The notes under the pieces are model-generated. The model was not told the origin of the DNA, searched no databases, and worked only from the letters and a program-made list of their open reading frames with translations. Both the position numbers and the translations under genes were made by a program. A stretch of 64,000 bases of DNA from Cellulomonas sp. 73-145. Lineage in GTDB: Bacteria; Actinomycetota; Actinomycetes; Actinomycetales; Cellulomonadaceae. Location: NCBI GenBank assembly GCA_001898185.1, contig MKTI01000002.1, forward strand, positions 62,001 through 126,000. Direction: 5' to 3'. Positions 15,918 through 19,994 of this stretch are shown in pieces. The first letter of the stretch is position 1, and every line of letters begins with the position of its first letter.

Positions 15918-16922
15918 ATGAGGCTGCGGCCCGGGCTGCGCGTGCTGACCCGCACGAACGGTGAGGTCCAGGTCGGTACCGACCCGCGGTGGGCGGTTCG
16001 CCTCGACGGGTTGACCGAGCGGGAGACCGCCGCCGTGCTGGCGCTCGGCGCCGGCGCCGACTCCGACCAGCTGGCCGCAGGCACGGGAGCGCGGCTCGCC
16101 CAGCTCGCGACGCTGCTGCGCGACGCCGGCCTGGCGGCGCCGGACCGCCGCTCGCCCGCCGTCCTCGGCCCCGCCGCAGCCGATGCGACCGTGTGCGGGC
16201 TGCTGCGACCGGACGGCGACGGCGCCCGGGTGGTCGACGCGAGGCGGGCCGCCGTCGTCGGCGTGGTCGGGCTGGGGCCGATCGGCCTGGCGACGGCAGG
16301 GACGCTGGCGGCCGCCGGGGTCGGGACCGTCCTGGTCGACGACGCGAGCCCGGTGCGCTCGGTGGACGTCGGCGTGTGCGGCTACCGGTGGTCCGACGTC
16401 GGGTCGGTGCGGGAGCGGGCCGCGGCCCGCGTGCTGCGGGACATCGCGCCGGACGTCCGCACCGACTCCTCCGCCGAGCCGGACGTGGTGGTCGTCGTCG
16501 AGCACGGCGCCGCGGATCCCGCCCGCACCGAGCTGCTGCTCGGCACTGGCACGGTGCACCTGCCCGTGCTGGTGCGCGAGGCGGACGCCGTCGTCGGGCC
16601 CCTCGTCGTGCCGGGTACCGGACCCTGCCTGCGGTGCCTGGACCTGCACCGCGCCGACGCCGACCCCTGCTGGCCGCGGATCGTCGCCCAGCTGGTCGGT
16701 GCACCGCCCGCCGCCGAGGTCGGTGCGATGGCCGTCGTCTGCGCCGGGCTCGCCGCCGCCGCGGTGCTCCGTGCGGTCGACGACCCGCCGGCACGCACGC
16801 GGCTGCGGACCGGCGCGACGTTCGAGGTCGGTCTCCCGGACGTCCTGCCCCGGACACGCACGTGGGAGGTGCACCCGGACTGCGGGTGCACCTCCCACGG
16901 TGCTGCTGCCGTCGCCGGCTGA
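15918..16922 (+). CDS. ThiF/E1-like protein (adenylyltransferase fold)
   Basis: 334 aa. About 110 N-terminal residues unlike the catalytic core are followed by a Rossmann nucleotide-binding motif (VVGLGPIGLATAGTL) and the E1-like beta-strand DDASPV. Four Cys could bind zinc: Cys237 and Cys240 (CLRC) and Cys322 and Cys324 (HPDCGC). Family members activate C-terminal carboxylates or serve as precursor-binding partners in peptide modification. No partner peptide, sulfur carrier or cyclodehydratase gene is adjacent. Start ATG 15918 follows GAGGAGGGA. The last 60 bases contain a perfect hairpin (separate entry). Confidence 0.8.
   Translation: MRLRPGLRVLTRTNGEVQVGTDPRWAVRLDGLTERETAAVLALGAGADSDQLAAGTGARLAQLATLLRDAGLAAPDRRSPAVLGPAAADATVCGLLRPDGDGARVVDARRAAVVGVVGLGPIGLATAGTLAAAGVGTVLVDDASPVRSVDVGVCGYRWSDVGSVRERAAARVLRDIAPDVRTDSSAEPDVVVVVEHGAADPARTELLLGTGTVHLPVLVREADAVVGPLVVPGTGPCLRCLDLHRADADPCWPRIVAQLVGAPPAAEVGAMAVVCAGLAAAAVLRAVDDPPARTRLRTGATFEVGLPDVLPRTRTWEVHPDCGCTSHGAAAVAG
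16861..16899. terminator. perfect 16-bp hairpin inside the ThiF-like coding end
   Basis: Arms 16861-16876 and 16884-16899 with a 7-nt loop, 23 nt before the stop. It encodes the conserved HPDCGC segment and is strong enough to act as a terminator for this gene and for whiB7, which converges on it. Confidence 0.65.
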
Positions 16923-16991
16923 GCGCCCCCTGCGCCCCCAGCCATCCCGTCCGCGAGAAGCCCGGTGCGAGGCCGGCACGCGGAGCCGGGG

Positions 16992-17330
16992 TCAGGCTGC
17001 CGGCTTCGCCTCCTTGCGCGGACGGCCCCGCCCGCGCTTCACGGCGACGACCTGGCCGGCGACGAAGACCTCGCCGCCCCAGACGCCCCACGGCTCGGCG
17101 CGTTCGATCGCACCGGCGAGGCAGCCGTCCAGCAGCGGGCAGGTCCGGCAGAGCGCCTTGGCGCGCTCCACCTCCGCCGTCCGCTCGGCGAACCACAGCT
17201 CCGGGTCGTTCGAGCGGCAGGGGATCAGCTCGGCGACGAGCTGGTCGAGGGTGTCGGGCGCGGTTGCGCCGGGCGGCCACGGGCCGGAACCCCCGTTGTT
17301 CACGGTGTCGAGCAGCGTGGTGAGCCGCAC
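16992..17330 (-). CDS. whiB7: WhiB7 iron-sulfur transcription factor
   Basis: 112 aa. [4Fe-4S] ligands Cys38, Cys61, Cys64 and Cys70; the sigma-binding turn GVWGG (82-86); and the AT-hook RGRGRPRK (99-106) that distinguishes WhiB7 from other WhiB proteins. WhiB7 binds the primary sigma factor and activates genes for intrinsic antibiotic resistance when translation is impaired. GTG 17330 follows a strong TAGGAGG. The gene is preceded by a roughly 380-nt leader with an upstream ORF, an intrinsic attenuator and a promoter carrying the AT-rich element WhiB7 itself recognises, so autoregulation and attenuation are both predicted. Confidence 0.95.
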   Translation of the reverse strand: MRLTTLLDTVNNGGSGPWPPGATAPDTLDQLVAELIPCRSNDPELWFAERTAEVERAKALCRTCPLLDGCLAGAIERAEPWGVWGGEVFVAGQVVAVKRGRGRPRKEAKPAA

Positions 17331-17420
17331 GATGTCCTCCTACGTCCTTGCTGGTGAGCGTTGTGCTGCGACGGTGCGGACCTGCGCCGTGCGCTCACCG
17401 GACGTCCGGAGAGACGAGAA

Positions 17421-17454
17421 AGGCCGCGGGTCCGAGTTCCGGACTCCGCGGCCT
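17421..17454 (-). terminator. attenuator in the whiB7 leader
   Basis: On the minus strand a 9-bp perfect GC stem (17421-17429 with 17446-17454), with an inner GTCCG/CGGAC pairing, is followed by a T-rich tract. It lies 20 nt after the leader ORF stop and 90 nt before whiB7, the place of the antibiotic-responsive terminator described for mycobacterial whiB7. Confidence 0.85.
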
Positions 17455-17474
17455 GTGCCGACCTCACGGTCGGA

Positions 17475-17645
17475 TCAGGTCATACGAGTCCCGGGACGGG
17501 GATCGGTGGTGGCGCCACGGACGACGCCGACGTACGTCGAGAGGCCGGCGGGCACAGTGCGCCCCTGGAACGTGCGGGACGTGGCCGCGGGGATGCGCAC
17601 GCGCAGGCGCTCGCAACGCTCGGATGCATCGAGCATCAGCTTCAT
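17475..17645 (-). CDS. whiB7 leader peptide (upstream ORF)
   Basis: 56 codons, beginning MKLMLDASERCERLRVRI and ending PGTRMT. ATG 17645 has GGAGGAGG at good spacing, unlike the overlapping GTG frame from 17655, whose ribosome site would touch the start codon. Its stop lies just before the attenuator, so the position of a stalled ribosome could decide whether the terminator folds. Leader ORFs of whiB7 vary in sequence between genera, so absence of homology is expected. The frame has some GC3 bias but its peptide is probably not the functional product. Confidence 0.65.
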   Translation of the reverse strand: MKLMLDASERCERLRVRIPAATSRTFQGRTVPAGLSTYVGVVRGATTDPRPGTRMT

Positions 17646-17712
17646 CAGTGGCCACCTCCTCCCACGATCCGGGCTGCGACCTGCACGGTCGCGCCCTCCG
17701 ACAAGGACCCGT

Positions 17713-19800
17713 TCACCTTAGGGGGGCCTTCGTGGACGTCACAACCCTTTTTCCGGGCTTCGTGCCAGACATTCTTGAAGGGGCCGCCGAGGGGTCGCCG
17801 GCCGCACCCTCGGCGAGGGCGTCCGCGATCACGGCGAGCACGTCCCGGCCGTAGCGCACCAGCTGGTTCTGACCGAAGCCGGCGATGCGGGTCAGTGCCT
17901 CGGGGCTGGCCGGGCGGTGCCGCGCCAGCTCCCCCAGGACGCGGTCCGTCAGCACCTTCGACGGCTCCTTGCCGTCCGCCGCCGCCCGGTCGGCACGCCA
18001 GCGCTGGAGCCGTGCGAGGGCACGGGCCGCCGCGGGATCCTCGTCGGACGCTGTGCCGTCCGACGCCCCGGCCTCGCGACCGGCGGGCCAGAGGGCGTCG
18101 AGGAACTGCGAGCGGGTACGGGTCGCCCGCGACCCCGGGGTGCGGGCCTTGGCCCAGGACAGCTCGAGGCGGTCCCGGGCGCGGGTCACCCCGACGTACA
18201 GCAGCCGACGCTCCTCCTCGCGAGCCGCGTCCGTCTCGGCCAAGGAGATCGGCAGCAGCCCCTCGCTGAGCCCGACGAGGAACACGACGTCCCACTCCAG
18301 GCCCTTCGCCGCGTGCAGGGACGCCAGCGTCACGCCGTCGGTGGTCGGCGCCTGCTGGGCAGCCGCACGCTCGTCGAGCTCGGCCACCAGGTCGGCCAGG
18401 GTGGCCGGCCTGCCCTCGGCTCCGGCCGCCACCTCGTCGGCCAGGCCGACGAGCGCCTGCATCGCGTCCCACCGCTCGCGGACCTGACCGCGCTCGGCCG
18501 GTGGTGCCGGCGCCCAGCCGGCGGAGAGCAGCACGTCGCGCACCAGCTGCGGCATCGGCTCGTCCGCGTCGGCCGACCGCGCGGCGCCGCGCAGCAGCAG
18601 CACCGCCTGGCGCACGTCCTGCCGGGAGAAGAACCGGTCGCCGCCGCGCAGCTGGTAGCCGAGGCCCAGCCGGGACAGCGCGTCCTCGAAGGCCTCCGAC
18701 TGCACGTTGGTCCGGAACAGGACCGCCATGCGGGACGCCGGCGTGCCGGCCGCCACCAGGCGGGCCACCCGTTGCGCGACGCCGGCCGCCTCCGCCTCGT
18801 CGTCCGCGTACGTCGTCCACTGCACCGCGGGACCGTCGGGACGCTGCGCGACCAGGTGCAGCGGGGCGTGACCGGGTCGCTTCGGAGCGGTGGCCAGCAC
18901 GGCGTTGGCCAGCCGTACCACCTGCGGGGTGGAGCGGTAGTCCCGGACCAGGTCGATCTGCGTGGTCCCCGGGTGCGTCTGGGCGAACTCGAGCAGGTGC
19001 CGCGGGCTCGCCCCGGCGAAGGAGTAGATCGTCTGGCTCGGGTCGCCGACGACGCACACGTCGTGCCGACCGCCGAGCCACTGGTCCAGCAGGTACTGCT
19101 GCAGCGGGCTGACGTCCTGGTACTCGTCGACCACGAAGTGCCGGTACTGGGCGCGCACCTGCTCGGCGACCTCGCCACGCTGGGCCAGCATGGCGGCGGT
19201 GAGCAGCAGCACGTCCTCGAAGTCGATGACGCCCCGCGCCTCCTTGGCGTCCTCGTAGGCGGACATCAGGCGCGGCACGTCCTGCTGGTCGACCCCGCCG
19301 GGGGCCGGCCGCCGGGCGGCACGCGCCGCGGCGACGTAGTCGTCGGACGGGACCAGGCTGACCTTCGCCCACTCGATCTCCGCGGCGAGGTCACGGATCG
19401 CGAGCCGGTCGACACCCTCGAGCTCGGCCCGGCGGGCCGCCTCCGCCACCACGGGCGCCTTCTGCTCGAGCAGCCGGGGCGGGGCACCCCCCACCACGCG
19501 GGGCCAGAAGAAGCCGAGCTGCCGCAGCGCCGCCGAGTGGAACGTGCGCGCCTGCACGCCGCCAGCGCCGAGGGCGCGCAGCCGCAGCCGCATCTCCCCG
19601 GCGGCGCGCGCGGTGAACGTCACGGCGAGCACGCCGGCCGGCCGGTACTGGCCGGTGCGCACGCCGTAGGCGATGCGGTGCGTGATCGCCCTGGTCTTGC
19701 CCGTGCCGGCGCCCGCGAGCACGCACACCGGCCCCGTCAGGGCGGTGGCGACGGCACGCTGCTCGGGGTCGAGCGCGGCCAGCAGGTCGTCGGCGGACAT
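17713..19800 (-). CDS. uvrD2: ATP-dependent DNA helicase UvrD2
   Basis: 695 aa, superfamily 1A 3'-5' helicase. Motif I LAGAGTGKTRAI, motif II VVDEYQDVSPLQQYLL, motif III GDPSQTIYSFAGASPRHL, motif V region LASLHAAKGLEWDVVF and motif VI VGVTRARDRLELSW are all intact. An HRDC-like domain closes the protein (ARHRPASPEALTRIAGFGQ), as in mycobacterial UvrD2; I see no tetracysteine zinc motif between. ATG 19800 is preferred to the ATG nine bases upstream because GGGAGG is spaced correctly for it. The 3' end doubles as the whiB7 promoter. The final 30 residues are basic and poorly structured. Confidence 0.93.
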   Translation of the reverse strand: MSADDLLAALDPEQRAVATALTGPVCVLAGAGTGKTRAITHRIAYGVRTGQYRPAGVLAVTFTARAAGEMRLRLRALGAGGVQARTFHSAALRQLGFFWPRVVGGAPPRLLEQKAPVVAEAARRAELEGVDRLAIRDLAAEIEWAKVSLVPSDDYVAAARAARRPAPGGVDQQDVPRLMSAYEDAKEARGVIDFEDVLLLTAAMLAQRGEVAEQVRAQYRHFVVDEYQDVSPLQQYLLDQWLGGRHDVCVVGDPSQTIYSFAGASPRHLLEFAQTHPGTTQIDLVRDYRSTPQVVRLANAVLATAPKRPGHAPLHLVAQRPDGPAVQWTTYADDEAEAAGVAQRVARLVAAGTPASRMAVLFRTNVQSEAFEDALSRLGLGYQLRGGDRFFSRQDVRQAVLLLRGAARSADADEPMPQLVRDVLLSAGWAPAPPAERGQVRERWDAMQALVGLADEVAAGAEGRPATLADLVAELDERAAAQQAPTTDGVTLASLHAAKGLEWDVVFLVGLSEGLLPISLAETDAAREEERRLLYVGVTRARDRLELSWAKARTPGSRATRTRSQFLDALWPAGREAGASDGTASDEDPAAARALARLQRWRADRAAADGKEPSKVLTDRVLGELARHRPASPEALTRIAGFGQNQLVRYGRDVLAVIADALAEGAAGDPSAAPSRMSGTKPGKRVVTSTKAPLR
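17715..17752 (-). promoter_or_regulatory. WhiB7-type promoter of whiB7, inside the uvrD2 3' end
   Basis: Minus-strand layout: AAAAA, three bases, -35 TTGTGA, an 18-bp spacer, -10 TAAGGT. An A/T run exactly 3 bp upstream of the -35 hexamer is the known WhiB7 target. The promoter lies within the last codons of uvrD2. Predicted start near 17708. Confidence 0.8.
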
Positions 19801-19994
19801 CGGGCACATCCTCCCAGCCGGCACCGACACCGTGGCGGCCGACCGGTGGACGGCGGGAACACGGCACCGCGGTGCGGCGTTGCGCCGGACGGCCGGCAGA
19901 GTGACCGCGGCAGAGCGACCACGCTCGGCGGCTGCACGGACCACGACGCAGCACGAGACGCAGCACGACGAACCGACGAGGACCCAGAGGACCC

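Follow-up and report, generated by a model that had tools for sequence, protein, structure and literature searches.

A predicted ribosome-controlled attenuator ahead of whiB7 in Cellulomonas sp. 73-145, with a possible polymerase pause and Arg-x-Arg stall site in its leader

The whiB7 gene of Cellulomonas sp. 73-145 lies within the 64,000-nucleotide (nt) stretch of contig MKTI01000002.1 (positions 62,001 to 126,000) that was analysed here and is referred to as the window, and it is preceded by what is very probably a ribosome-controlled transcription attenuator (probability about 0.9, judged from the sequence). Promoter, leader upstream open reading frame (uORF), intrinsic terminator and whiB7 are all located on the minus strand (Table 1). 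The locus belongs to the known whiB7/wblC class of uORF attenuators, sharing homology with the published examples, and is directly supported by its sequence anatomy, its conservation, and the covariation of terminator and antiterminator across relatives. More tentatively, and with chances falling just short of even, whiB7 leaders in much of the Actinomycetia may have two additional parts: a frame-independent pause ~60-140 nt past the uORF start that holds the polymerase until a ribosome has loaded, and an Arg-x-Arg macrolide-stall site upstream of the antiterminator. Such leaders would be a convergent counterpart of the Bacillus tlrB leader.

Two sets of relatives were compared. The order-level set, drawn mostly from the order, contains 166 distinct loci including the window, reduced from the 205 collected by removing four other WhiB genes by score and, for the remainder, repeats sharing the same 300 nt before whiB7. 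The class-level set contains 67 loci chosen class-wide, corresponding to 66 distinct places (L231 and L264 are one place). The uORFs and whiB7 starts were chosen automatically, family designations (f22, f37 and so on) are labels only, and the species are related, such that the counts are not independent events.

A preliminary description of this DNA, made from the letters alone, had recognized a promoter, a leader open reading frame and an attenuator, and this three-part reading is right, the parts being conserved in 145/166, 114/152 and 145/166 order-set loci respectively. The promoter is as described at base level, with an A-run 3 bp before TTGTGA, an 18-bp spacer and TAAGGT; an AT-rich box 3 nt upstream of the -35 is thus present, as in known whiB7/wblC promoters, and a box just upstream of the -35 is given as the mark of WhiB7 promoters in the accessible text of two papers (PMC3905903, PMC7157823). 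The pattern AAAAWN3TTGN21TANNNT, with one mismatch allowed, has a single match in the 64 kb and none in 100 shuffles. The variant AWAAWN3TTGN21TANNNT matches once in the whole 3.87-Mb genome, at the whiB7 promoter (reversed control, 0), and no second WhiB7-box promoter was found genome-wide with this near-strict pattern, looser boxes not having been searched. Promoter scores of at least 15 occur in the 145 order-set loci as compared to 5 of 3320 resampled sequences (the promoter and terminator controls hold dinucleotide frequencies on average only), 138 of these 145 having a spacer of exactly 18. At class level, 65 of the 67 loci (66 distinct places) score at least 14.

The 56-codon leader uORF and its good ribosome site also stand as originally reported. 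Of the 152 order-set loci with a terminator score of at least 26, 114 have a uORF with a good ribosome site in the equivalent location, and a uORF was found in 64 of the 67 class-level loci (66 distinct places); the reading frame, ribosome site and position are all conserved among relatives, and translation is predicted. Between the uORF and whiB7, the previously noted 9-bp GC hairpin with a T-rich tail has fully complementary arms (AGGCCGCGG and CCGCGGCCT; 9 bp, 100%) and folds with an energy of -29.3 kcal/mol (z -5.4; 0/200 shuffles as stable). The tail, TTCTCGTCTCTC (17420-17409), is T-rich, yet has no clean run. Hairpin and tail together score at least 28 in 145/166 order-set loci and in 18/830 controls, and this conservation leaves the attenuator reading of the hairpin standing. 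The stem AGGCCGCGG/CCGCGGCCT is nearly fixed among 171 non-redundant terminators from both sets, with paired changes at two positions (pair 4: GC 159, AT 10, GT 2; pair 5: CG 161, TA 7, TG 3). An Rfam scan of 16900-17900 returned nothing up to E 1. The gene downstream encodes a WhiB protein with an AT-hook, as at known whiB7 attenuators, and its product is 99% identical to the counterpart in Cellulomonas sp. SG140. The suggestion that the locus is an independent example of this logic is contradicted, because other members of the order and class have the locus too, with uvrD2 as its neighbour and with all three parts. The initial observation is confirmed and its interpretation partly supported.

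The antiterminator, which the preliminary description had missed along with the pause-like element and the Arg-x-Arg motif, is predicted to be a GGACTC-type element in the last uORF codons, varying in step with the 5' arm of the terminator. Many relatives have GACTCCG(C/T) just 5' of the uORF stop, complementary to the terminator 5' arm GCGGAGTC. These nucleotides translate as Pro-Asp-Ser, Arg-Thr-Pro or, in the window, Gly-Thr-Arg; as the same nucleotides are retained with different amino acids, the constraint appears to act on the RNA. The uORF end tends to change where the terminator arm changes, with variant pairs GGAGCC/GGCTCC, GAAGC/GCTTC and GAATC/GATTC. In a helix test using 173 of 233 loci (40 without a uORF, 19 without a terminator and one without a core were dropped), corresponding to 145 non-redundant loci, cognate strands score 18.2 as compared to 13.8 with arms of another class, and 300 permutations give a mean of 15.4 and a maximum of 16.1. 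The largest second arm class, GAACC (27 loci), is a weak case, scoring 15.5 with its own uORF ends and 14.5 with other arms. An antiterminator that excludes the terminator is thus identified for the family through covariation, whereas the window alone gives weak pairing. For the window, RNA ending at the terminator loop is predicted to fold as the antiterminator, enclosing a small hairpin, at -30.6 kcal/mol as compared to -29.3 kcal/mol for the terminator, and a ribosome of ordinary size at the uORF stop codon would cover GGACTC. Pairing of GCGCACTGTGCC with GGCACAGGCCGC, an alternative antiterminator suggested by the window sequence by itself, was rejected; the 5' segment is conserved in relatives, mostly without such a partner.

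The leader peptide in the window contains Arg-Leu-Arg-Val-Arg, and the available text of PMC6851288 gives R/K-x-R/K as the motif for macrolide arrest in tlrB and other leaders. The motif R/K-x-R/K is found in 153 of 172 distinct leader peptides as compared to 88 in shuffled peptides (maximum 106). Arg pairs at offset 2 in the reading frame number 194 where 78 are expected (2.5-fold), with offsets 1, 3 and 4 near expectation, and among 122 less related peptides the numbers are 134 and 55. Summed over 26 family units the fraction with RxR is 17.3 as compared to 7.9 (standard deviation 1.6, maximum 13.1). Its position is also clustered in the order-level set, where 49/79 loci have the motif 18-54 nt before the antiterminator (control 7.3, maximum 16); together with the class-level set the count is 54/111.

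It is rather unlikely, although by no means negligible, that Arg-x-Arg arises as a side effect of GC-rich sequence or RNA constraints and is no ribosome-arrest signal. An excess at offset 2 is also seen in UvrD2 C-termini (598/358, z 16.8) and in the uORFs when read in the +2 frame (721/552, z 9.4), but the in-frame excess of 2.5-fold is larger in ratio than either, and UvrD2 proteins are homologous, with fixed sites in common. Offset 5 is somewhat high in the redundant peptide set (96 vs 72.5, z 3.0), but is not raised among the 122 less related peptides (57 vs 52.9). The positional clustering that is strong in the order-level set is weak at class level (5/32 vs 2.1, maximum 8; not significant), which is in keeping with a by-product. 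Against it, the codons vary, with 42 codon triplets among 68 RxR, and the excess persists outside the window's own family unit, at 16.4 of 25 units as compared to 7.6 (maximum 12.3), where the 'own family' unit also includes leftover loci of other families.

The second candidate addition is a pause-like element, GGGCGCACTGTGCCC, in the middle of the uORF, with G at 17563, T at 17554 and G at 17553. Bases of the pause consensus include G-11, T-3 and G-2. The bases G-10, Y-1 and G+1 are those of the consensus elemental pause and are held in common with ops, according to the available parts of PMC12288461, PMC10268239, PMC6336406 and PMC11001881; the element here differs in its set distance inside a leader reading frame and in its extension by T-3 and by YCC at +2 to +4. 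The Cellulomonas uORFs commonly contain CCAGGGG-N5-T-(G/C)-T-G-Y-CC, and GG-N6-T-N-Y-G is present at this place in 39/40 non-redundant loci as compared to a mean of 1.0 (maximum 5) with synonymous resampling, a figure inflated, as is the 29/35 below, by the picking of these 40 loci and of 35 Cellulomonas-type leaders by a peptide pattern spanning the element. In the 40 Cellulomonas loci the distance from uORF start to predicted RNA 3' end has a median of 89.5 nt and a standard deviation of 6.7, whereas uORF length has a standard deviation of 34. The element was spotted first and counted afterwards.

Unselected leaders also show an excess. GG-N6-T-S-Y-G lies 60-160 nt into the uORF in 84/114 leaders at order level, where synonymous controls give 24.6 (maximum 36), and in 33/64 at class level, where they give 14.3 (maximum 21), and the extended form GG-N6-T-S-Y-G-Y-CC occurs in 69/114 and 27/64 of these redundant sets. 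Among non-redundant leaders the extended form is present in 29/35 Cellulomonas-type, 13/39 other order-level and 16/51 class-level leaders, most of the distant leaders lacking it. For the same three sets, UvrD2 coding windows contain it in 0/34, 0/38 and 0/38, synonymous controls give 0.75, 2.2 and 3.3, and the antisense strand has it in 6/35, 4/39 and 0/51; in the window the other strand also matches the pause-like pattern at the element itself. Across the whole window the extended form shows no excess (8 vs 18.8 in shuffles), and only the conserved place therefore counts as evidence. Each of the three sets has N6 as its most frequent spacing (33/35, 21/39 and 22/51), with rival spacings close behind: N7 (31) and N5 (30) in the first, partly from the four-G run, N7 (20) in the second and N10 (20) in the third. 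In the two more distant sets the spacing therefore lacks specificity. In the available text of PMC12288461, Mycobacterium tuberculosis NusG favours pausing and the B. subtilis NusG-dependent pause motif is TTNTTT at -11 to -6; this Bacillus-type motif is absent from -11 to -6 of the window element, which has GGGCGC there.

The element is probably read as nucleic acid, since it is found in all three codon phases: the counts for phases 0, 1 and 2 are 6, 5 and 2 in other order-level leaders and 7, 1 and 8 in the class-level set, although the phase is always 0 in Cellulomonas-type leaders (29/29). A conserved peptide motif, Q-G-x-x-V-S/P, acting in the ribosome tunnel with no polymerase pause is unlikely. 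It would fit the constant phase and the similar peptides (QGTAVS, GTGLSG) of the 29/29 Cellulomonas hits and of family f37, which is presumably Streptomyces, but not the appearance of the same nucleotides in other phases elsewhere, nor the retention of the third-codon T in 39/40 of the selected Cellulomonas-type leaders, in which the encoded residue varies among Ala, Gly, Thr, Ser and Arg. Less likely again is an RNA structural segment such as an anti-antiterminator or a sequestered ribosome site. The GG...CC ends could make a short stem and there are complements near the terminator in the window and some relatives, but cognate pairing exceeds that of permuted elements by at most about one standard deviation in all seven leader regions (63 non-redundant loci), and the +5/+15 pair shows no covariation, 6/40 being C with C or T. 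A local hairpin at the element is likewise unsupported by covariation.

With a polymerase pause and an Arg-x-Arg stall site included, the switch may operate as follows. RNA polymerase would start at the WhiB7-activated promoter, transcribe the uORF and halt briefly at GG-N6-T-S-Y-G, ~90 nt past the uORF start, while a ribosome loads and catches up. With normal translation the ribosome would reach the uORF stop and cover GGACTC, allowing the terminator to form and end transcription. An early ribosome stall, for instance through a macrolide at Arg-x-Arg or through amino-acid shortage, would leave GGACTC free to pair with the terminator 5' arm, and whiB7 would be transcribed and amplify its own expression through the WhiB7 box. 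For this organism we infer the pausing, the ribosome arrest and the direction of the switch.

Several observations weigh against this account or parts of it. In the window the antiterminator is weak, with six contiguous pairs and a duplex of -13.3 kcal/mol that ranks 109th of 145 and is matched by 21% of pooled shuffles, and the 68-nt stretch that folds as the antiterminator has a z of only -1.2 (24/200 shuffles as stable). With ~106 nt between its last RxR codon and the antiterminator, the window falls outside the range of 18-54 nt in which order-level relatives cluster. Among order-set loci, 21/166 lack a promoter scoring 15, and 38/152 terminator-bearing loci lack a uORF under the ribosome-site filter. 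The short-motif spacing is not specific in the class-level set, where N6 occurs in 22/51 and other spacings in 4 to 20. In family f22, presumably mycobacteria or their kin, 7/8 leaders lack the extended element. At E. coli pause sites, M. tuberculosis RNA polymerase also shows weaker pausing than its E. coli counterpart, as described in the accessible part of PMC12558654.

The promoter is positioned within the end of uvrD2, as was reported at the outset: the AT box, -35 and spacer all fall in uvrD2 codons, and the TGA stop begins with the final T of the -10. The overlap is real, but the accompanying idea that it constrains both elements does not hold generally, because it is confined to few loci and the related cases are scattered in the tree. 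It occurs in 3/145 order-set loci with both parts placed (the window, G027 and G034/SG140) and 0/50 in the class-level set; in the remaining 142, L186 and L103 excepted, 4 to 192 nt separate the uvrD2 stop from the -35 downstream. That DNA repair and the antibiotic response are functionally coupled through the overlap is very improbable given that rarity, and among the three loci the two UvrD2 tails compared are different. In 19 order-set loci the -35 is 7 or 8 nt past a TAA stop, and in a tree of 127 rows the cases with 7- or 8-nt spacing or with the stop in the box are scattered over several separate groups. In the overlapping frame the window has codon AAA where relatives with 7-nt spacing have TAA, and one guess is that a single T-to-A change inside the box removed the stop; it stays a guess because the tree does not group the window with those relatives. 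The overlap is thus a small lineage-specific curiosity.

The uvrD2 stop TAA overlaps the AT-rich WhiB7 box, as called, in 21/145 order-set loci of several separate lineages (L019, L022, L029, L030, L031, L033, L050, L052, L053, L055, L057, L121, L122, L126, L128, L141, L142, L145 and others), and in these one short AT stretch would be both stop codon and activator site. The largest separation is in L103 (Cellulomonas cellasea NBRC 3753), where the whiB7 promoter is 1302 nt (about 1.3 kb) from the uvrD2 stop, possibly through an insertion; L186 is second, with the -35 553 nt past the stop, the rest of the order-level set being at 192 nt or less. At E 1e-18, no whiB7 match is present in 67 of 149 genomes of the order. 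Families f4, f6, f7, f9, f19 and f20 are absent among the whiB7-matching genomes listed, which could reflect whole-family loss, and many members of genera g7 and g15 of the window's own family and of genus g38 of family f14 have two whiB7-like matches per genome.

Table 1. Positions of whiB7, its predicted control elements and the neighbouring uvrD2 gene in the window.
Feature	Positions	Strand	Remarks
uvrD2-type helicase	17713..19944	-	UvrD and HRDC domains; stop TGA 17715-17713
WhiB7-box promoter	17715..17752	-	AAAAA 17752-17748, GGG, TTGTGA 17744-17739, 18-bp spacer, TAAGGT 17720-17715
Shine-Dalgarno sequence AGGAGGT of uORF	17654..17660	-	from sequence
Leader uORF	17475..17645	-	ATG 17645 to TGA 17475 (stop codon 17477-17475), 56 amino acids
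Arg-Leu-Arg-Val-Arg (RLRVR)	17595..17609	-	residues 13-17; R-x-R macrolide-arrest-type motif, putative function
Pause-like element	17550..17564	-	predicted RNA 3' end 17554 (Y-1), G+1 17553, G-10 17563
Antiterminator 5' strand GGACTC (predicted)	17486..17491	-	in uORF codons G-T-R, 8 nt before stop
Small hairpin CCGACC/GGTCGG	17458..17473	-	between uORF stop and terminator; enclosed by antiterminator in predicted fold
Intrinsic terminator hairpin	17421..17454	-	arms 17454-17446 and 17429-17421
Antiterminator 3' strand GAGTCC (predicted)	17441..17446	-	part of terminator 5' arm and loop
whiB7	16992..17330	-	112 amino acids, GTG start 17330; Pfam Whib E 3e-15, over cut-off
whiB7 C-terminal AT-hook RGRGRPRK	within 16992..17330	-	by eye from translation

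The whiB7/wblC uORF attenuator of mycobacteria and Streptomyces was reportedly treated by Burian and Thompson in 2018 and by Lee, Lee and Roe in 2022. In the parts available, the literature on whiB7/wblC describes the same switch of uORF, terminator and antiterminator (PMC11550727, PMC9618640, PMC13393426), with a WhiB7-activated promoter, leader reading frame, intrinsic terminator and antiterminator like those here (the same papers and PMC12121999). The leader peptide sequence is different here, the antiterminator is placed and covaries, the pause-like element and R-x-R are added, and the overlap of promoter and uvrD2 is confined to the window lineage. The tlrB (yxjB) leader of Bacillus subtilis, in the accessible text of PMC6851288, is alike in its leader peptide, intrinsic terminator and arrest motif (RYR), and its polymerase pause gives time for leader translation, a role similar to that proposed here. 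Its pause is NusG-dependent with a T-rich motif, unlike the GG-N6-T-S-Y-G of the Cellulomonas element, and no homology is claimed; moreover, the stalled ribosome at tlrB blocks the terminator directly, whereas an antiterminator is proposed here. The B. subtilis vmlR leader combines a uORF, an antibiotic stall, an antiterminator and terminator, and mapped pauses, but differs in its very short uORF (MIN) and its NusG TTNTTT pause (available text of PMC9226507). By analogy, the added parts suggest a tlrB-like build, with a ribosome-loading pause, a drug-sensitive peptide and a terminator choice. A search of one open-access library found no description of a uORF pause or of Arg-x-Arg in whiB7 leaders and, as implied by search ranking, no paper joining whiB7, an arrest motif and macrolides; the available part of a 2025 paper gives ribosome stalling in the whiB7 uORF as not yet tested (PMC12121999).

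The locus by itself is of modest interest, and the comparative result adds weight. In actinobacteria whiB7 governs intrinsic resistance to antibiotics, and the comparison pinpoints a predicted one-base polymerase halt (17554), a putative Arg-x-Arg stall and covarying antiterminator strands, such that the open question is directly testable. If the proposed pause and stall site are real, they would explain how the switch keeps polymerase and ribosome synchronized and why seemingly unrelated leader peptides have a few features in common, and the leader peptide would encode part of the whiB7 drug spectrum.

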